A stretch of DNA of 35,785 bases from Bacteroidales bacterium (GTDB taxonomy: Bacteria > Bacteroidota > Bacteroidia > Bacteroidales > WCHB1-69), in NCBI GenBank assembly GCA_024400815.1, contig JAKSMD010000013.1, positions 1 through 35,785 of the forward strand, written 5' to 3'. The notes under the pieces were generated by a model. The model ran no database searches. It saw only the letters and a program-made list of their open reading frames with translations, and was not told the DNA's origin. The position numbers and the translations under genes are program-made. Numbering within the stretch: position 1 is the first letter of the stretch; the number at the start of each line of letters is the position of its first letter. Shown in pieces: positions 4,509 through 11,873 of the stretch.

Positions 4509-5345
4509 CTATAGGATGTCTTTCAATAGAGCGTGAAATTCCGGGAAGTGCATACCCGCATTACGTTCGATAATGAGCACTTTTAATCCGGCGTAAGGGC
4601 GCAGCTTTTTGTCTAAGGCGACGAGATCGACATCTTTGCCGAAGTATTCTTTAGCGAAGTAAACCCAAAATTCTTTGGCAGTGGCTAATTCCATGTGGAA
4701 AACTTCTCTCACAAAATCTTCGCTATCGTAGCAGCAGCATAGCAGCACCATGCCGAGGTCGAAGAGGGGACAGCCGCAAGCAAAGTCGCCCAGGTCGATG
4801 AAAAACTTCTGTCCGTCAGCGGCAATGGCGTTGCTGAATTGCAGGTCTCCGTGAATTGCTGTGTCGCCGTCAGGGGCAGCCTGAATGAAGGCAGCCACTT
4901 TTTCTTTTTCTGCTGAGGTGAAGTATGGATTCTCTTCCAGGAGTTTCAAGTTTACAGCTTTGATATCTGGAAAAGCGCCTGCGGGCAAGTGTGTGTTATG
5001 CAGTTGCAGACACATGCGAGCAAACTCGCGAGCAAACTCTTCTACGCGTTGGGGCTCATTGCCGACTGCGCGGGAGAAGGATATCTTGTTGACAATGCGC
5101 TCAAAACGAATGCCGTAGCGGCCGTTGCCATCGGTGACAAAATCACCCGGCTTTGGGGTGGCAATGCCCAAATTATAGACCTTGTGGGCTAATTCCAACT
5201 CGTTGACAATAATTTCGTATGGTGCCGAGGCATTGTATAGTTTCAGCATGACGGAGGAGTTGGTCTTATGATTGTAGCTGGCGCCATTGGCACCTTCTCC
5301 AGCATATTCGTAATCAGAAAGATTGATGATTTCAGGTGTTTGCAT
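4509..5345 (-). CDS. APH-type phosphotransferase (protein-kinase-like fold), last gene of the stress operon
   Basis: The 278-aa product has the catalytic signature of the aminoglycoside phosphotransferase/choline kinase fold. The loop HGDLQFSN supplies the catalytic Asp and the metal-binding Asn. It is followed by IDLGDF, the equivalent of the DFG Asp. An N-terminal lysine in VMLKLYN is the likely ATP-binding residue. It resembles the TIGR02172-like putative aminoglycoside phosphotransferases of anaerobes, whose natural substrates are unknown, so antibiotic resistance should not be assumed. A cysteine run (LLCCCYD) follows the DFG-like region. The gene starts 48 nt after the alarmone hydrolase gene on the same strand with no promoter box between them, so it is probably co-transcribed. 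Confidence 0.8.
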   Translation of the reverse strand: MQTPEIINLSDYEYAGEGANGASYNHKTNSSVMLKLYNASAPYEIIVNELELAHKVYNLGIATPKPGDFVTDGNGRYGIRFERIVNKISFSRAVGNEPQRVEEFAREFARMCLQLHNTHLPAGAFPDIKAVNLKLLEENPYFTSAEKEKVAAFIQAAPDGDTAIHGDLQFSNAIAADGQKFFIDLGDFACGCPLFDLGMVLLCCCYDSEDFVREVFHMELATAKEFWVYFAKEYFGKDVDLVALDKKLRPYAGLKVLIIERNAGMHFPEFHALLKDIL

Positions 5346-5393
5346 TTTCTTTATTGACTTATCTTTGACTTGGGTTTTTAACCAGATAATCTT

Positions 5394-5975
5394 CTAAAGT
5401 GATCCGAAGGTCTTATCCACCCAGTAGCAGAATTCCCGGTAGGCATTGGTACCTTCTAAATCTGAAAGGGCTTTTATAAGTTCGCGGTAGCGCCATTGGT
5501 GGTCGGCTTTGCCATTGGGGGCATGGAATCGCTCCCACAGTTTGTCACCCATTTTTTCATAATCACGGCCAATGGCTCGCATATTGGATAGTTTGTCGCC
5601 CATAGCCACAACCTTTACATCGTAGGGTGCCTTTTTTAGTTTGTTGAGGGCAGCCAGTTTGCGTTCGCGCCAGCTGGAGTCTTTGGGCAGACCTAGTTTG
5701 TTGTCGCTTTCGGCCATGACGATGCGGGCTATGCGTTCTCCAAATTCCGTTTGGATTTGGTCGATGGTCACTGCAGTGTCCTCCACTGTGTCGTGCAATG
5801 CGGCAGCAGCCAACAATTCTTGGTCATTGGTGATGGAAGCCACAATCTCAACGGCTTCAAAGGGATGAACAATGTAGGGAAATCCTTTGCCACGACGCTC
5901 GGTGTTGGCATGCGCATCAATGGCAAAATGCAGTGCTTTGTCTAGTATGCTACTATCTATATATGCGTTAGGCAT
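5394..5975 (-). CDS. Small HD-domain (p)ppGpp hydrolase (SAH/SpoT-hydrolase-like)
   Basis: This 193-aa protein is a stand-alone version of the hydrolase half of RelA/SpoT. The metal-binding set looks complete: YIVHP (His37), ALHDTVEDT (His61-Asp62, Glu65-Asp66), and GDKLSNMR (Asp127), which corresponds to the final Asp of the canonical ADRLHNMR motif. Such enzymes remove the 3'-pyrophosphate of (p)ppGpp, or of other 3'-pyrophosphorylated products. No synthetase or TGS/ACT regulatory domains are present. Its ATG lies 2 nt after the stop codon of the synthetase-like gene, so the two are almost certainly translated from the same mRNA. The pair may balance each other, or act as toxin and antidote; the sequence alone cannot decide. 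Confidence 0.85.
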   Translation of the reverse strand: MPNAYIDSSILDKALHFAIDAHANTERRGKGFPYIVHPFEAVEIVASITNDQELLAAAALHDTVEDTAVTIDQIQTEFGERIARIVMAESDNKLGLPKDSSWRERKLAALNKLKKAPYDVKVVAMGDKLSNMRAIGRDYEKMGDKLWERFHAPNGKADHQWRYRELIKALSDLEGTNAYREFCYWVDKTFGSL

Positions 5976-5977
5976 GA

Positions 5978-7063
5978 TTATTTAAGGTTGATTTCTTGAA
6001 TTTGTTTGAAGGTGCGTGCGGCGCGTTGCTGGTTGTAGTCGGAAGGGCCATGCACACAGTCGTAAAAATGCTTGAGCTCTTTTTCACCGCCATAGTTTTT
6101 GACGATGTGAATGACGCACAGGTTCTGTATGGCGATGGAAAGTGCCACAATGTCGAGGTCCGTGCCGGCAAGTTGGTGAAGAGCCAGCTGGTAGGCGCCG
6201 TCTTTACACTCTCTGTTCATGCGCACCAAGTCTCCCAAGGTCTTGAATCCCATTTTGAGGAAAATATCCAAGAATCGGAAGATGTTGTCCTCATAGACTT
6301 CGGCTTGGTTGATGTTGGCAATCTTATCAATGAGCTTTTGGTATGGGTTCAAGTCAAGAAAACTGCGGAAGGTGTCGCCATTCAAAGGAATGCTGTCAAA
6401 ATCGCCGTCTGCAACGAGGGATTGGATTTTGCGCCGATAGTCGGTGATTTCCTTTCGGATGCGGCTGAATTGTTCGTCTGCTAATTCCAGCATGCCGGCA
6501 ATGCGGTTCATATTACGCAGGTGCTCGCGTGGAATCTCAATGCCGGATTTGTATCCTGTGTCATGGTACATGGTGGCCCACACATGCTGCAGTGCGGTGC
6601 GCATCTGGATTTCAAAACGATATTGATTGACTTTGGGCATTGCCGGGTCATCATATAGCGATTGCGGAATCCGGCAGATGTAGTGCAGCGACATGTATCC
6701 AAATTGGTCTAATTCCAAAACGGTTCTCTTATCGATGGAATTCTGCCAGTCGATATCGAAAACTTTGTCGATGATTGCCGCGACTTTATCGACTTCATCG
6801 GTATAGAAGGTGATGACGCGTGCGCCCACGATATCGGTGATATCTGCTATGCTGTTGTATTTGTATCCTTTCAGCATCAGTTTTCCCCGAAGACTCTTTT
6901 CTGTCTTGATGCGTGCTTCCACCGCATTGATGGTGATGTTGCTTTGTCGGATGCATTCGTTCAGTTTGTCTATGACAATTTCCTGAATTTTCTGGTAGGT
7001 GTCAAGATTGTCGAGGTATTCATCCAGAATCATCTGACAATGGGCGTCAAGATTATGTTCCAT
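5978..7063 (-). CDS. RelA/SpoT-domain (p)ppGpp synthetase-like protein with long C-terminal extension
   Basis: The 361-aa product carries a RelA/SpoT nucleotidyltransferase (synthetase) domain at about residues 25-175. Visible elements are ARIKTEKSLRGKL (Arg51, Lys53), DIVGARVI (Asp77, Arg82), FGYMSLHYI (Tyr123, His127) and FEIQMRTALQHVWA (Glu151, Gln153, Arg155). The family moves pyrophosphate from ATP to the 3'-OH of GTP/GDP; some toxic members use tRNA or make (pp)pApp. There is no HD or TGS domain, so it is not a long RSH. Residues about 190-361 form a mostly helical extension with no domain I recognise, longer than in typical small alarmone synthetases. It starts 3 nt after the STAS gene and ends 2 nt before the hydrolase gene. 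Confidence 0.85.
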   Translation of the reverse strand: MEHNLDAHCQMILDEYLDNLDTYQKIQEIVIDKLNECIRQSNITINAVEARIKTEKSLRGKLMLKGYKYNSIADITDIVGARVITFYTDEVDKVAAIIDKVFDIDWQNSIDKRTVLELDQFGYMSLHYICRIPQSLYDDPAMPKVNQYRFEIQMRTALQHVWATMYHDTGYKSGIEIPREHLRNMNRIAGMLELADEQFSRIRKEITDYRRKIQSLVADGDFDSIPLNGDTFRSFLDLNPYQKLIDKIANINQAEVYEDNIFRFLDIFLKMGFKTLGDLVRMNRECKDGAYQLALHQLAGTDLDIVALSIAIQNLCVIHIVKNYGGEKELKHFYDCVHGPSDYNQQRAARTFKQIQEINLK

Positions 7064-7066
7064 GTT

Positions 7067-7369
7067 TTATAAGATGTTGATGATGTTGGAGAAGCCAGTG
7101 ATATCAAAAACTTCTTTGACTTGTGGTTTCATATTGGTCAAAATCAAATTGCCTGCCCTTGAGGTCACACTTTTTTGAAGCATGAGGAAGAGGCGGAGTC
7201 CTTGGCTGGAAGTGTACTCCATATTGGTGCAGTCGATTTCAATATCCGGATTATCTCCTTCCATCAGCGGTTCGATGTCTTGTTGGAATTTGCTGGCATT
7301 GGTGGTGTCCAGTCTGCCATTCAAAACCACTATCGTTTTAGATTCTTCTTTGTTAATTGTTACATCCAT
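7067..7369 (-). CDS. STAS-domain anti-anti-sigma factor (RsbV/SpoIIAA-like)
   Basis: The product is a 100-aa single STAS domain. It has the typical strand NGRLDTTNA near residues 17-25 and the loop YTSSQGLRLF. Ser55 in that loop aligns with the serine phosphorylated by the partner kinase in SpoIIAA and RsbV. In known partner-switching systems the unphosphorylated form binds the anti-sigma kinase and releases its target. The matching kinase and phosphatase are encoded directly upstream in the same operon, which makes the pairing secure. The next gene, 3 nt downstream, encodes a (p)ppGpp-synthetase-type protein, an unusual neighbour. Confidence 0.9.
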   Translation of the reverse strand: MDVTINKEESKTIVVLNGRLDTTNASKFQQDIEPLMEGDNPDIEIDCTNMEYTSSQGLRLFLMLQKSVTSRAGNLILTNMKPQVKEVFDITGFSNIINIL

Positions 7370-7381
7370 GATGTTTATGAT

Positions 7382-9274
7382 TTAAACGATTATGCTTAAA
7401 ATAGTGATGTCATCGTTTTGTTCGTTGCCTTCTGTGAAATTCTTAACGGAGGCGTATATTGCGTCCGTCATCTCTTGCGCATTGAATTGTTTGAATTCGG
7501 GTGCGCTGACGAGGGTTAAAAGTCGTTGGTTCCCGTATAATTCCTGATTATGGTTTTCAGCTTCTGTGACGCCGTCGGTGAAAAGTATCAAACGCGTGCC
7601 CGTTGGCGTGAACAGGGTTTCGTCTTGGTATTGGAAATCAGGGAAGATGCCCACGGCCAGATTGGTGTGAGCTTTGAGGAAGTACGGCTTTTCATCGGGC
7701 GGAATGACGATGATAGGATTATGGCCTGCGTTGCAGAATACCATTTCGTGTTTTTCTAAGTCGATGCGGCCGGCGAACATCGTCACGAACATATTGGCTT
7801 CATTGTTTTCTGAGACATTGTTGTTGAGGTGGCCGACTAGTTTTTTCATTGGCAGTTCCATGCTGTTGAAAAAGCGGCAGGCTGCCAAGGTGATGGCCAT
7901 CACCAAAGAGGCGGGCACGCCTTTGCCGGATACGTCGCCGATGGCGAAGTACAGCATGTTGTCTTTGAGCTGGTAGTCGTACAAATCGCCTCCCACCTCT
8001 TTTGCAGGGGTCAGCAAGGCGTGTACACTGCAATTTTTGTTTTTAGGCAGAATTTTGGGCAACATGCCGAATTGTATGCTTCGTGCGATATTCAATTCGC
8101 TCTCCATGCGTTCATTGGCCTTTGTGGTGATTTTCAGTTCGGAGATGTAGGTGGTGAGTGATTGTTGCAGGTACTCGAAGGAGTCGTGTAACTGCATAAT
8201 CTCGTCTTTTGTTTTGATTACGGGCAGTTGGGCTTGGAAATTGCCTTTGGCCATGGCATGGGCGGCTGTGGAGAATTCCGTGAGCGGCTGTGTCATGTGG
8301 CGAATGGTGCGGTGACAGACCAACAGCATAATCAGAATTCCTATAATGCAGATGATGGCCAAGATGATGTCCATCTTGAGGGCTTGTTCCAGCACATCAC
8401 GATAAAGGCAGGTGATGGCCAGCGCCCAGCCGTTGTGAAGCGGTCCGAATACGGCAAATCCGCTTTTTCCATGATGCTCGTAGCGCATCATGCCGGATTC
8501 TCCGTTGATGATTTTCTGCGATAGCTCCATGACGCGCGTGTCTTTTGCCTTCTGAGCCGTGGTCAGCAGGGTCTCGTTGACCAAGTCGTAGTTCTCGCCA
8601 CGGGAGAGGTAGTGCCCTTCCTGACTGGTGAGAGAAGCGTAAGAGTGCTCATAGGGACGGATGGCCGCCACTTTTTCAGTCAGCCACTTCAAGGAAATGT
8701 CTGCGGTGATAATTGCAATCAGCTGGTTGTTATTGTCCAAAATAGGATAACTGAATGTGGACATCATCAGCTCGCCGCCGCCTTTGTCAAAATAGGGTTC
8801 GCTCCAACAAGGCTTGCCGCTGTCAGCCGCTTTGCGATACCATTCCGAAGCAAAATAATCGTAATGTTCTCCCAGCTGCAAACTCTTGATGGCGCCCGTT
8901 TTTTCATCTTTACAACTATAAGGTGCAAAATGAAAACGCCCATTGACATAATTGCTGTCAAAAGCGATGGTACTGCCGACGATAAAGGGATTTTCATCTA
9001 CTACTTTTTGCGTGATATGGTATAGGTATTCTTCATCTTGCTCGTTTTCTTTTACTAACCAAGAGGCGTTTTGGATGGTGGATTCCACTTGCAATAATGT
9101 TTGCTCTATATCTGAAATAGAGGCATTAAGCATATTGGTTGAACTTTTTTGAGCTTCTTTGGAGATGAGGATGTGTGAAAAAATAGCCACAACGCTTAAT
9201 GCCACCACAAATAATATGGAGACAATCAAGAGCACATTTAAACTCAACCGTGTGGAAAAGGATTTTGACTTCAT
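7382..9274 (-). CDS. Membrane-bound PP2C/SpoIIE-type serine phosphatase with sensor and HAMP domains (RsbU-like)
   Basis: The 630-aa product begins with a membrane helix at residues 10-33. An extracytoplasmic Cache-like sensor region follows (about 40-310), then a second helix, a HAMP linker, a short coiled coil, and a C-terminal PP2C phosphatase domain (about 397-630). Metal-binding aspartates are visible in GGDLYDY (430), GDVSGKG (447), FTDGVTEA (567) and QNDDIT (621-622). It should remove the phosphate from the STAS protein encoded 12 nt downstream, in response to an outside signal. An ORF start 48 nt further upstream overlaps the kinase gene. The ATG at 9274 is preferred because it lies 5 nt after the kinase stop codon and leads directly into the positively charged end of the first helix. 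Confidence 0.92.
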   Translation of the reverse strand: MKSKSFSTRLSLNVLLIVSILFVVALSVVAIFSHILISKEAQKSSTNMLNASISDIEQTLLQVESTIQNASWLVKENEQDEEYLYHITQKVVDENPFIVGSTIAFDSNYVNGRFHFAPYSCKDEKTGAIKSLQLGEHYDYFASEWYRKAADSGKPCWSEPYFDKGGGELMMSTFSYPILDNNNQLIAIITADISLKWLTEKVAAIRPYEHSYASLTSQEGHYLSRGENYDLVNETLLTTAQKAKDTRVMELSQKIINGESGMMRYEHHGKSGFAVFGPLHNGWALAITCLYRDVLEQALKMDIILAIICIIGILIMLLVCHRTIRHMTQPLTEFSTAAHAMAKGNFQAQLPVIKTKDEIMQLHDSFEYLQQSLTTYISELKITTKANERMESELNIARSIQFGMLPKILPKNKNCSVHALLTPAKEVGGDLYDYQLKDNMLYFAIGDVSGKGVPASLVMAITLAACRFFNSMELPMKKLVGHLNNNVSENNEANMFVTMFAGRIDLEKHEMVFCNAGHNPIIVIPPDEKPYFLKAHTNLAVGIFPDFQYQDETLFTPTGTRLILFTDGVTEAENHNQELYGNQRLLTLVSAPEFKQFNAQEMTDAIYASVKNFTEGNEQNDDITILSIIV

Positions 9275-9279
9275 AAGGG

Positions 9280-9693
9280 TTATTCTTGGGCTATTTTTTT
9301 CTTCATAGTTAAGATGTTGCAACCATCTTCATAATGATAAATGACATCGTCCATTAGTTTTTTGCATAAATAAATGCCCAAGCCTCCAATTTCACGCTGT
9401 TCTACAGGCAAGGATAAATCGGGATCGGGTTTTGCTAATGGCTTGAAATGAATGCCGGCATCTTTCAGTGTGACGGATAAAATAAGGCCCGTATTTTCAA
9501 GGTCGGTACCCACTTCCATCCAACCCACGCCATCGTTATATGCGTAGTTTACAATGTTTTCAACAGCTTCTTCGATAGATAGTCGAATCTTAAACAGCAA
9601 GTTGTCATCTTTCGGCATGTCGGGGGATGACATCAAAAATTCGATGATTTCACCACTTTTTTGTTGAATCGGGTTGAAATGTTTTTTTATCAT
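9280..9693 (-). CDS. RsbW-like anti-sigma serine kinase (HATPase_c_2)
   Basis: This 137-aa GHKL-type ATPase has the N box IEEAVENIVNYAY (Asn46), the G1 box LKDAG (Asp78) and the G2 box GGLGIYL (103-109). That is the layout of RsbW/SpoIIAB kinases, which phosphorylate a STAS partner and sequester a regulator. A TTG nine bases upstream is in frame, but the ATG at 9693 is a better start. It is the first gene of the six-gene operon and has its own promoter box at 9727-9734. No sigma-factor gene adjoins it, so the protein it restrains is unknown. Bacteroidota generally lack SigB, which suggests the output may not be a sigma factor. Confidence 0.9.
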   Translation of the reverse strand: MIKKHFNPIQQKSGEIIEFLMSSPDMPKDDNLLFKIRLSIEEAVENIVNYAYNDGVGWMEVGTDLENTGLILSVTLKDAGIHFKPLAKPDPDLSLPVEQREIGGLGIYLCKKLMDDVIYHYEDGCNILTMKKKIAQE

Positions 9694-9726
9694 GATAGAC
9701 AAATATCTTTTTTAGAATAAAGGCAG

Positions 9727-9734
9727 CAAAAATA
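9727..9734 (-). promoter_or_regulatory. -7 box driving the partner-switching/alarmone operon
   Basis: TATTTTTG on the minus strand matches TAnnTTTG and sits 33 nt before the kinase ATG, in the gap after recG. A TTTT lies about 20 nt upstream at the -33 position. I see no other promoter box further down the operon. Confidence 0.55.
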
Positions 9735-9758
9735 CGAAAAAAGGCATAAAGATAAAAG

Positions 9759-11873
9759 TTAGCTGATAATGCTCCAATTGGTGTCGCTTTTGAGCATTTC
9801 TGTCACTTTTTTTGCTAAGCGAGAGTGCTCTGGCCGACTTAGGTTCGGATCATTGTCCAATACTTGCAGGGCCAATTTCCGAGTATATGAAACTAATTTT
9901 TCATCTTTTGAAATATCTGCGATTTTGAAATCCAGCATGCCGCTTTGCTGTGTGCCTTGGATGTCGCCCGGTCCGCGCAATTGGAGATCGAAGTTGGCAA
10001 TTTCAAAACCATCATTGGTGCTGACCATGGCGTTGAGGCGTTTGCGTCCATCTGATGAAAGTTCATATTTGGACATGAGAATGCAATAGGATTGGTCGCC
10101 GCCTCTACCGACTCGGCCGCGCAGCTGGTGCAGTTGTGAGAGTCCGAATCGCTCGGCGTTTTCAATGACCATCACGGTGGCGTTGGGCACATCTATGCCC
10201 ACTTCGATGACGGTGGTGGAAAGCAGAATCTGTGATTGGTTTTTGGCAAAACGCTGCATTTCAAAATCTTTTTCTTCCGGCTTCATTTTGCCATGAACTA
10301 CGCCAATGCCGTATTCTGGCTCGGGGAAGGTGTTTCTAATGGCTTCACCACCCGCCATTAAATCCAGCAATCCTGACTTTTCCGATTCTTTGATGAGCGG
10401 ATATACGATGAAGACTTGTCGCCCTGCCGCAATCTGTTTTTTTAGAAATCCATATAGAGAAAGACGCTTGTTTTCGAACAGGTGTTTGGTAATGATGGGT
10501 TTTCTCCCCTTGGGCAGTTCATCGATGACGGAAACATCCAAATCTCCATAAAGTGTCATGGCCAGCGTGCGCGGAATTGGCGTGGCTGTCATGACCAGCA
10601 CATGGGGTGGAATGGCATTTTTACGCCACAACTTGGCACGCTGTTCTACGCCAAAACGATGCTGCTCGTCAATGACGACCAGTCCTAAGTTCTGGAACTG
10701 CACAGGGTCTTCAATCAATGCGTGGGTGCCAATTAGGATATCTACATCTCCGTTTTGCAATCCTTCTAAAATCTGTCTGCGTTTGGTGGCTTTCGTGGAA
10801 CCGGACAAAAATTCAACACGCAGTCCTAAAGGCGCCACTTGCTTGCTGATTTTTTCGTAATGTTGGGTGGCTAAAATTTCCGTCGGGGCCATCATGCAGG
10901 CTTGGAAGCGGTTGTCGATGGCAATCAGCATGACGAATAGGGCAATGATGGTTTTGCCACTGCCCACATCTCCTTGCAAAAGGCGGTTCATTTGATGCCC
11001 GCTGCCTAAGTCTGCCCGAATCTCTTTGATAACCCGCTTTTGGGCGTTCGTGAGTTCGAAGGAGAGATGATTTTTATAAAAATTGTTAAAATTATCTCCA
11101 ATGGTGCTGAAGATGTGTCCTTTGGATTTGGTGGTGTTAATCTGCTTGAGCATCAGCATTTTCAATTGTGTGAAAAAGAGCTCGTCAAATTTGAGCCGAA
11201 GGGCAGCTCTGGAGAGGTGCTGATTGCTTTCGGGATAGTGAATGTTGGAAAGCGCATCCCGTAAAGGGAGCAGATTAAGATTATTTAACATATCATCGGG
11301 GAGCGTCTCCGGGATGATGTTGTGTACGATGGGAAGGAGGTTTGCGACAATTTTGGCGAGCGCTTTGGAGTCCAGTGTCTTGCGCTTGGCAATGTCCGAG
11401 GTGTTGTACAATGGCTGAAAACGCATGGGCACTTGGGAGTCGTTCTGCGCATGTGGGTCTATCATTTCCGGATGGGTGATATTCCAACGGCCGCTGAAAA
11501 GTGTGGGCTTTCCGAAGAGGATGAAATCTCGTTTGGTTTGCAGCAGTTCTTGAACCCATTTGATGCCGTTGAACCATACCAGGTCGATGCTGCCGGTCTC
11601 ATCTGTGAATTGAGCCACAAGTCTTTTGGTGCGTTGTTGTCCTATGACTTGCACATTGGAAATGCGGCCGCGCAGTTGTATATAGCTGCCGTCTTCTACA
11701 ATATCGGACACATGGTAAATTTGGGATTTGTCGATGTGCCGATAGGGATAATAGTGTAGCAGATCATCGAAGGTGTCAATATTGAACTCTTTGCGCAGCA
11801 CCTCAGCGCGTTTGGGTCCGACACCTTTCAGGTATTCAATGGGGGTTTGTAAAATGTCGTGTTGGTCAGTCAT
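9759..11873 (-). CDS. recG: ATP-dependent DNA helicase RecG
   Basis: The 704-aa product has the full RecG architecture: the N-terminal wedge/OB domain (about residues 60-150), Walker A GDVGSGKT (301-308), the DEQH box (402-405), TATPIPRTLAMT, and QLRGRVGRG near the C-terminal helicase lobe. RecG remodels stalled replication forks and Holliday junctions in the cytoplasm. Its length is typical for Bacteroidota. It lies 86 nt downstream of the DUF1846 gene on the same strand with no visible promoter box in between, so it may be part of that transcript. Confidence 0.97.
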   Translation of the reverse strand: MTDQHDILQTPIEYLKGVGPKRAEVLRKEFNIDTFDDLLHYYPYRHIDKSQIYHVSDIVEDGSYIQLRGRISNVQVIGQQRTKRLVAQFTDETGSIDLVWFNGIKWVQELLQTKRDFILFGKPTLFSGRWNITHPEMIDPHAQNDSQVPMRFQPLYNTSDIAKRKTLDSKALAKIVANLLPIVHNIIPETLPDDMLNNLNLLPLRDALSNIHYPESNQHLSRAALRLKFDELFFTQLKMLMLKQINTTKSKGHIFSTIGDNFNNFYKNHLSFELTNAQKRVIKEIRADLGSGHQMNRLLQGDVGSGKTIIALFVMLIAIDNRFQACMMAPTEILATQHYEKISKQVAPLGLRVEFLSGSTKATKRRQILEGLQNGDVDILIGTHALIEDPVQFQNLGLVVIDEQHRFGVEQRAKLWRKNAIPPHVLVMTATPIPRTLAMTLYGDLDVSVIDELPKGRKPIITKHLFENKRLSLYGFLKKQIAAGRQVFIVYPLIKESEKSGLLDLMAGGEAIRNTFPEPEYGIGVVHGKMKPEEKDFEMQRFAKNQSQILLSTTVIEVGIDVPNATVMVIENAERFGLSQLHQLRGRVGRGGDQSYCILMSKYELSSDGRKRLNAMVSTNDGFEIANFDLQLRGPGDIQGTQQSGMLDFKIADISKDEKLVSYTRKLALQVLDNDPNLSRPEHSRLAKKVTEMLKSDTNWSIIS

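Follow-up and report, generated by a model that had tools for sequence, protein, structure and literature searches.

The 35,785-nt stretch of contig JAKSMD010000013.1 analysed here (assembly GCA_024400815.1, a Bacteroidales draft genome that comprises 180 contigs totalling 2.39 Mb and is approximately 85% complete), hereafter the window, carries on its minus strand six consecutive genes that join a partner-switching module to enzymes of alarmone turnover. The module comprises an RsbW-like serine kinase (HATP), a membrane sensor phosphatase (PP2C), and a STAS protein, and it is followed by a RelA/SpoT-type small alarmone synthetase (SAS; SYN), an HD-type small alarmone hydrolase (SAH; HD), and a phosphotransferase (APH). 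This gene set is not confined to the window: in 47 of 68 Bacteroidales loci HATP, PP2C, STAS, and HD were all located within 8 kb of SYN, with APH also present in 28 of these 47, so that the linkage noted in a preliminary description of this DNA is conserved in relatives. We propose, with a probability of roughly 0.5, that the partner switch would control the synthetase post-translationally, as a signal-gated alarmone switch.

The six genes, identified by reading of the open reading frames (ORFs) and by domain searches, all run in one direction from position 9693 to 4509 (Table 1; forward-strand numbering of the window). The identities assigned to them in the preliminary description were all recovered and agree with the Pfam and NCBIfam matches, and the spacing of 2–12 nt reported there for the first five genes was measured as 5, 12, 3, and 2 nt in transcription order, followed by 48 nt before the sixth. 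The ORF upstream of the kinase gene, also on the minus strand, was taken for recG by eye, and between the two is the single minus-strand TANNTTTG octamer found across 4509–9760, a possible Bacteroidota −7-like element. By arithmetic, a stretch of that length should contain about two octamers of this type by chance, and the paired −33/−7 promoter pattern had no match at the site; the "one visible promoter" of the preliminary description is therefore retained as a lone octamer and not as a paired promoter.

Table 1. Predicted genes and sites of the six-gene operon, in window coordinates
Feature	Position	Strand	Match or basis
RsbW/SpoIIAB-like serine kinase (HATP), 137 aa, P0001	9280..9693	-	HATPase_c_2 PF13581, 6.4e-20
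Membrane sensor phosphatase (PP2C): dCache_1, HAMP, and SpoIIE-type PP2C, 630 aa, P0002	7382..9274	-	Pfam
STAS-only anti-anti-sigma-type protein, 100 aa, P0003	7067..7369	-	PF01740, 2e-17
Ser55 codon of the STAS protein, predicted phosphorylation site (SS-x-GLR)	7205..7207	-	Sequence reading
RelA/SpoT-type synthetase (SYN; SAS), 361 aa, P0004	5978..7063	-	RelA_SpoT PF04607, 6.5e-16
C-terminal extension of SYN, residues 216-361	5981..6418	-	No Pfam family matches
HD-type small alarmone hydrolase (HD; SAH), 193 aa, P0005	5394..5975	-	HD_4 PF13328, 2.2e-20
TIGR02172/APH-fold phosphotransferase (APH), 278 aa, P0006	4509..5345	-	APH, 1.7e-14; TIGR02172
TATTTTTG, candidate Bacteroidota -7 element; distance to the first start codon, 33 nt	9727..9734	-	Consensus match only

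The loci were gathered from several sources. In the GTDB family of the window, 37 of 104 genomes gave a SYN match, 36 of them strong; among genomes drawn from the order and the phylum, 9 of 393 matched at 1e-60 and 20 of 394 at 1e-3, mostly weakly; a second family of 31 genomes contributed 12 matches at 1e-60 (one borderline), which lie outside the 68-locus set unless already included; and a contig scan yielded 33 loci. Removal of duplicates and of synthetases shorter than 250 aa left 68 non-redundant loci, several of which are close relatives, so that the counts are not independent. Most of the SYN-bearing relatives are uncultured Bacteroidales, and the titles of many indicate rumen or horse faeces as their origin; most genomes are drafts of varying completeness. 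Annotation relied on profiles built from the same loci, with one query each, replacing crude longest-ORF-first gene calls. Since these profiles come from the loci themselves, weak matches are generous, and in L049, L060, and L120 long proteins of RSH size are among the HD matches.

When considering the neighbourhood of SYN across the 68 loci, HD was present in 60 (in L060 as a long-RSH match), STAS in 57, a YegS-like lipid kinase (DAGK) in 16, and a Y_phosphatase3 protein in 13. The gene immediately upstream of SYN was most often STAS (30 loci), followed by DAGK (10), Y_phosphatase3 (3), an ABC ATPase (2), a cytidylate-kinase-like gene (2), and single cases of HATP, PP2C, and the unnamed family c4, with no gene within 250 nt in 18 loci. 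Downstream, HD was located in 45 loci, a fused HD in one, APH in 14, c4 in one, and no gene in seven. The order of the genes is reshuffled among lineages and their membership is constant. Such recurrence over 68 loci rules out chance or assembly-local clustering, and a phage or mobile module was likewise rejected, the viral relatives of SYN (22 loci) being without module genes in the flanks fetched.

Some neighbours showed arrangements of their own. A DAGK/YegS-like gene closely follows STAS, whether or not SYN is nearby, in L145–L148, L158–L162, L072–L079, and L081. Y_phosphatase3 is situated near the end of the operon in L048, L049, L052, L053, L055, L056, L061, L062, L130, L166, L214, and L215; in several loci it abuts or overlaps STAS, and in L166 it is accompanied by the HD gene alone. 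In L071–L079, L081, L129, L143, and L032, SYN-HD or a lone SYN is flanked by genes of a polar amino-acid ABC transporter whose permease and solute-binding protein are fused.

The three switch proteins are predicted from their domains to form an RsbUVW-type partner switch, with a HATPase_c_2 kinase, a sensor PP2C, and a STAS protein bearing a phosphorylatable serine. The HATP family profile retrieved the RsbW structure 6m36 at 1.3e-12; its ATP-site residues are invariant in 22 aligned rows, and across loci the two glycine motifs were found in 54/54 and the N-box pattern in 53/54. In the phosphatase P0002, Pfam identified SpoIIE (1.4e-48) together with MCP-like PDC/dCache and HAMP domains. Its best NCBIfam match, SiaA (NF038263, 1.3e-19), reached 70.2 bits, far under the cut-off of 700 that defines a SiaA equivalog. 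Of 52 loci, 51, 51, and 52 carry the PP2C motifs, and 37 carry the last metal motif in its written form. The STAS protein P0003 also matched TIGR00377 (74.6 bits, cut-off 53.45). By the SpoIIAA pattern, the serine likely to be phosphorylated is Ser55, which shows no variation among 21 aligned rows, and the SS.GLR motif is kept in 55 of 57 loci.

Two types of switch were distinguished. In type A, the kinase and phosphatase are separate and the STAS motif is mostly YTSSQGLR; type B is defined by a phosphatase-kinase fusion (PP2C~HATP, 18 of 68 loci) and its STAS motif is mostly YISSSGLR. On the SYN tree, a quick tree with SH-aLRT support of 89 on the branches at the A/B split, a single change among the 54 loci suffices to divide the 36 of type A from the 18 of type B, which is compatible with the synthetase and the switch having been kept together since the split. 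Mirror-tree correlations were set aside as evidence of interaction. Many pairs were significant and some were weak, such as, within type A, PP2C-SENS, SYN-APH, and HATP-HD (permutations as high in 234/500, 47/500, and 40/500), and they would indicate co-inheritance at best.

Other switch genes were also observed. The genome of the window has a second STAS and sensor-PP2C pair on contig C118 (L169), whose STAS is 32% identical, with no synthetase in the 10 kb fetched. In L048, L049, L053, L149, L215, and L216, the gene immediately before that of the dCache phosphatase encodes an NMT1/THI5-like periplasmic binding protein, which may pass a ligand to the phosphatase. Type B PP2C~HATP and STAS genes also occur in L151, L152, and L153 (SYN-negative G029 and G020, SYN-positive G056), beside a gene of approximately 450 aa and a large ORF that, by eye, starts like a non-ribosomal peptide synthetase condensation domain, which makes this another recurring context for partner switches.

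Regarding the synthetase, the catalytic D77 and E151 and the G-loop Y123 are invariant in 18 aligned rows, and of 67 loci, 65, 63, and 65 carry the respective motifs. Solved relatives retrieved by sequence are of the RelP/RelQ type, including 3l9d, 2be3, and 5dec, and the best solved chains for the SYN profile are RelP/RelQ/YwaC-type (1e-15 to 1e-17). The "RelA/SpoT family" chains 7ztb, presumably CapRel, and 9erv gave an E-value of only 0.003, and such closeness in sequence does not fix the product. With the domain and residues of an RSH-family small synthetase, SYN is predicted to synthesize (p)ppGpp.

The C-terminal extension of SYN, which the preliminary description had singled out as a possible binding site for the switch, proved to be conserved only in the switch-associated clade. 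We compared 68 Bacteroidales rows with 32 orphan relatives (12 from bacterial and 20 from viral contigs; the broken or truncated viral sequences L178 and L197 were left out), the orphans having no module genes in the flanks fetched. Over residues 216–361, the mean top-residue frequency by segment was 0.58–0.72 in the module clade versus 0.26–0.29 in the orphans; over the core (41–215) the values were 0.74–0.80 versus 0.53–0.63. Of 44 clade-specific SYN positions, 28 are situated in the extension. This conservation is compatible with a docking or regulatory domain. Only 10 positions distinguish type A from type B SYN, too few for interface mapping. Orphan RelA/SpoT-type synthetases, mostly of about 360 aa, were observed in 22 viral contigs (L177–L198), the one in L178 being interrupted by a stop codon.

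The nearest solved chains to HD are 7qoe, 7qoc, and 4yf1, and its motifs HD..ED and DKLSN are kept in 58/58 and 57/58 loci, respectively, a fold and motif set that predicts a small alarmone hydrolase. The phosphotransferase P0006 scored 231.3 bits against the TIGR02172 cut-off of 228.2, with the APH motifs kept in 34 of 36 loci; no paper on TIGR02172 turned up in the literature search. With the expected residues present, and kept in most relatives, the proteins of the window look active. Fusions also link the enzymes: HD~APH was found in 14 of 68 loci, eight of these 14 being mutually close relatives, and SYN~HD in one of 68 as a single 565-aa frame (L066:5268-6980) with the domain order reversed relative to long RSH proteins. 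The latter comes from one metagenome assembly, where a lost stop codon or an assembly error is possible.

Co-occurrence was evaluated in the 104 genomes of the GTDB family, counting as SYN-positive those with a match at E 1e-100 or better (36 genomes; G055, at 1.3e-12, was thus negative), with thresholds of E 1e-8 for STAS and E 1e-40 for a close HD, and tallying the sets by hand. A STAS match was present in 36/36 SYN-positive versus 26/68 SYN-negative genomes (Fisher 2e-11), and a close HD in 33/36 versus 1/68 (Fisher 2e-22), both tests ignoring kinship. Hence, SYN implies the switch and the switch does not imply SYN.

In nine of the 68 loci, and in a tenth case dropped as a near-duplicate (L037, with its switch in L218), SYN and HD are unlinked to the switch. 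Loci of this kind, which the preliminary description regarded as telling against its proposal, do occur; each of the genomes concerned has a switch elsewhere or a contig break, and the co-occurrence therefore survives. For instance, L060 stops at a contig end and has its continuation in L214, which contains SYN remnants, HD~APH, HATP, PP2C, STAS, and Y_phosphatase3. The other eight genomes carry the switch at L145, L146, L147, L148, L149, L160, L215, and L216. In G076, G085, G066, G043, and G037 it is a type A switch followed by DAGK (L145–L148, L160), and the SYN locus of G037 (L114) also begins at a contig end. The switch of G595 is of type B (L149) and may be a paralogue with a different job. 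In G908 (SYN in L063), an HD-HATP-NMT1-PP2C-STAS-Y_phosphatase3 cluster is located elsewhere, and in G906 (SYN in L059), the separate cluster reads ABC transporter-DAGK-NMT1-PP2C-HATP-STAS and a third contig holds HD. Additionally, five loci carry a partial switch. In G060 and G061, the kinase is still beside SYN, together with the phosphatase in G061, and STAS is displaced (L080, L070, L164, L165), where it lies behind a Na+/H+ exchanger gene and a serine dehydratase-like gene identified by eye.

Many of these Bacteroidales have partner switches, although SigB is, according to the preliminary description, generally lacking in Bacteroidota. A sigma-70 profile made from 11 of 12 fetched Bacteroidales sigma proteins, one longer reading being left out, matched neither the window nor any of the 219 further loci, with the reservation that sigma factors of the ECF type could escape it. 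Within that scope, a sigma gene near the module was discarded; the preliminary description had likewise noted none beside the six genes. A Sigma70_r3 search of 15 genomes gave one match in six (G016, G085, G735, G575, G827, G198), two in eight, and four in the genome of the window (G000). G198 has an orphan SYN only, while G016, G575, G735, and G827 are near-complete and combine a linked module with a single Sigma70_r3 protein each. ECF sigma factors lack region 3 and are outside this count. A long RSH protein scored over the family cut-off in eight of 10 genomes, that of the window included, so that the module would be an addition to housekeeping alarmone control.

The scheme that we consider is based on two kinds of precedent, the partner switches that act on cyclic di-GMP (c-di-GMP) synthesis and the Treponema denticola SAS with its inhibitory C-terminal domain. 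The dCache sensor of the membrane phosphatase would detect a periplasmic signal, upon which its PP2C domain would remove the phosphate from Ser55 of STAS. Dephosphorylated STAS would then capture the RsbW-like kinase, and SYN would be released, or activated by STAS, through its clade-specific C-terminal extension, raising (p)ppGpp or a related pyrophosphorylated product. The HD hydrolase would clear this product and thereby reset the system, and the TIGR02172 kinase may serve as a coupled accessory enzyme; once the signal is gone, the kinase would rephosphorylate STAS and rebind SYN. As to which protein binds SYN, we lean slightly towards the kinase rather than STAS, because in G060 and G061 the kinase stays beside SYN while STAS has moved; by analogy, the c-di-GMP synthase precedents favour STAS. 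The complete form of the proposal, in which a periplasmic signal acts through reversible STAS serine phosphorylation on a SYN whose C-terminal domain evolved into the docking site, with a dedicated hydrolase and with exchangeable outputs (lipid kinase, phosphatase, TIGR02172 kinase) on the same switch, would give Bacteroidales an entry to the stringent response besides the ribosome and SAS transcription, and we hold it tentatively, at a little under even odds.

The recurrent neighbours allow another explanation, a multi-output stress switch in which the kinase and STAS control the lipid kinase, the tyrosine phosphatase family protein, the TIGR02172 kinase, or the antiporter, and SYN and HD are merely co-expressed in a growth-arrest programme. 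The overlap or close abutment of STAS with DAGK or Y_phosphatase3 in several loci argues for it, as do the HATP-PP2C-STAS-DAGK clusters apart from SYN in L145–L148 and L158–L162. Nevertheless, DAGK and Y_phosphatase3 are far rarer near SYN than HD and STAS are (16 and 13 versus 60 and 57 of 68 loci), L156, L157, and L163 hold a switch without DAGK, and all 36 SYN-positive family genomes have a STAS match, the reverse being untrue; we regard this explanation as unlikely. Ordinary sigma control, in which the kinase would be the anti-sigma partner of a distantly encoded sigma factor and the enzymes of the operon regulon-like passengers, appears more doubtful still. In its favour, the three proteins have the canonical RsbW/U/V domains, and Sigma70_r3 proteins are available in the genomes, including the four in G000, the pairs in eight of the 15, and one in G043 about 11 kb from a switch. 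Against these stand the absence of sigma-70-profile matches from the 220 loci and the four near-complete genomes that pair a linked module with one Sigma70_r3 protein each, ECF sigma factors being outside that count.

A gated toxin or defence device would interpret the same genes differently: SYN would act like a toxSAS, by tRNA pyrophosphorylation or (p)ppApp synthesis, HD would be its antidote, as ATfaRel is for FaRel, and the switch would be the trigger. The adjacency of SYN and HD resembles faRel-aTfaRel, as described in PMC11782079; the wider SYN family occurs in the 22 viral contigs; and the SYN of the window and 6/6 others tested, three of them viral, match the PADLOC candidate PDC-S33. 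In contrast, the best solved chains of SYN are of the RelP/RelQ/YwaC type, with 7ztb and 9erv far behind, the viral orphan relatives show neither HD nor switch in the flanks fetched, and three genomes have SYN without a close HD, unlike an obligate toxin-antitoxin pair. This device is about as improbable, in our judgement, as sigma control.

Several observations weigh against control of the synthetase by the switch. The switch is present without SYN, so SYN is not its sole possible target: four of 28 genomes with type A STAS (at least 62% identity) are SYN-negative, with the lipid kinase adjoining in two and not in the other two, and type B STAS relatives are common among SYN-negative genomes. 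Possible outputs also include other enzymes and transporters found repeatedly in the operons, namely the lipid kinase, Y_phosphatase3, the Na+/H+ exchanger, and the amino-acid ABC transporter. A close HD was not found in three of the 36 SYN-positive genomes (G004, G062, and G078, one of them 79% complete), where weaker HD matches were best in 704–780-aa frames of RSH size. Conservation of the extension could reflect self-inhibition, as in the T. denticola enzyme; the greater diversity of the orphans extends to the catalytic core, and SYN keeps the same extension in lineages with the switch in trans. The four Sigma70_r3 matches of G000 are elsewhere in that genome, and the Sigma70_r3 protein of G043 (contig C74, 16323–16523) is situated about 11 kb from a separate kinase-phosphatase-STAS-lipid kinase operon. 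Beyond gene content, residues, association, and co-occurrence, all steps of the scheme are ones that we infer. The earlier proposal that the switch directly controls SYN or HD is supported in part, by the conserved linkage, the lack of sigma-70-profile matches, and the clade-specific extension; in nine of the 68 loci these genes are unlinked, with the co-occurrence surviving.

When compared to known systems, the closest likeness is to SiaABCD of Pseudomonas aeruginosa, HsbA-HsbD, and BgrV-BgrR. As described in PMC8457831 and PMC7647112, SiaABC is a partner switch in which SiaC binds and activates the diguanylate cyclase SiaD unless phosphorylated, HsbA-HsbD and BgrV-BgrR being similar, so that a phosphatase/kinase/STAS-type switch acts on a second-messenger synthase; action on SYN in the present case is a proposal from the genes. 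The systems differ in that the output is a diguanylate cyclase there and a RelA/SpoT-type enzyme with a dedicated hydrolase here, with no GGDEF match by Pfam in any of the six proteins, and in that SiaC is a DUF1987 protein (PMC8457831), whereas ours is a PF01740 STAS-only protein from a different phylum. RsbU/RsbV/RsbW and SpoIIE/SpoIIAA/SpoIIAB share with the module its three switch-protein families and the predicted logic of phosphorylation; here, output enzymes take the place of a sigma factor, the loci having no sigma-70-profile match. Likewise, T. denticola combines a small synthetase, Tde-SAS, which has an inhibitory C-terminal regulatory domain of approximately 180 aa, with a separate small hydrolase, Tde-SAH (PMC10434055). 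That domain is of the TPR type, whereas the extension of the window's SYN matches no Pfam family, and the words "operon", "upstream", and "STAS" do not occur in the text available of that paper. In the faRel-aTfaRel toxSAS module, a RelA/SpoT-type synthetase adjoins a small alarmone hydrolase and the toxin is flanked by two antitoxin genes; the accessible text (PMC11782079) mentions no partner switch.

The literature searched, mostly open access and as titles and abstract openings, contained no partner switch joined to an alarmone synthetase, and ppGpp is absent from the main text, as available, of the STAS review PMC8256260. The statement of the preliminary description that no system with this wiring has been described therefore holds for alarmones in the sources covered and has to be narrowed for c-di-GMP, for which partner switches on the synthase are known (PMC8457831). 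A partner switch on a second-messenger enzyme is thus known; what appears to be new is the proposed alarmone variant in Bacteroidales, which brings a hydrolase of its own. Alarmone turnover is suggested as a specific output of the switch by a gene content that several genera and families have retained. If the proposal is true, it would extend the principle of partner switching onto second messengers from c-di-GMP to alarmones, place direct control by protein phosphorylation among the inputs of (p)ppGpp signalling, and connect growth control in bacteria of the rumen and gut with a periplasmic sensor; an outside signal may, in this manner, turn the alarm on directly in uncultured gut-type Bacteroidales.

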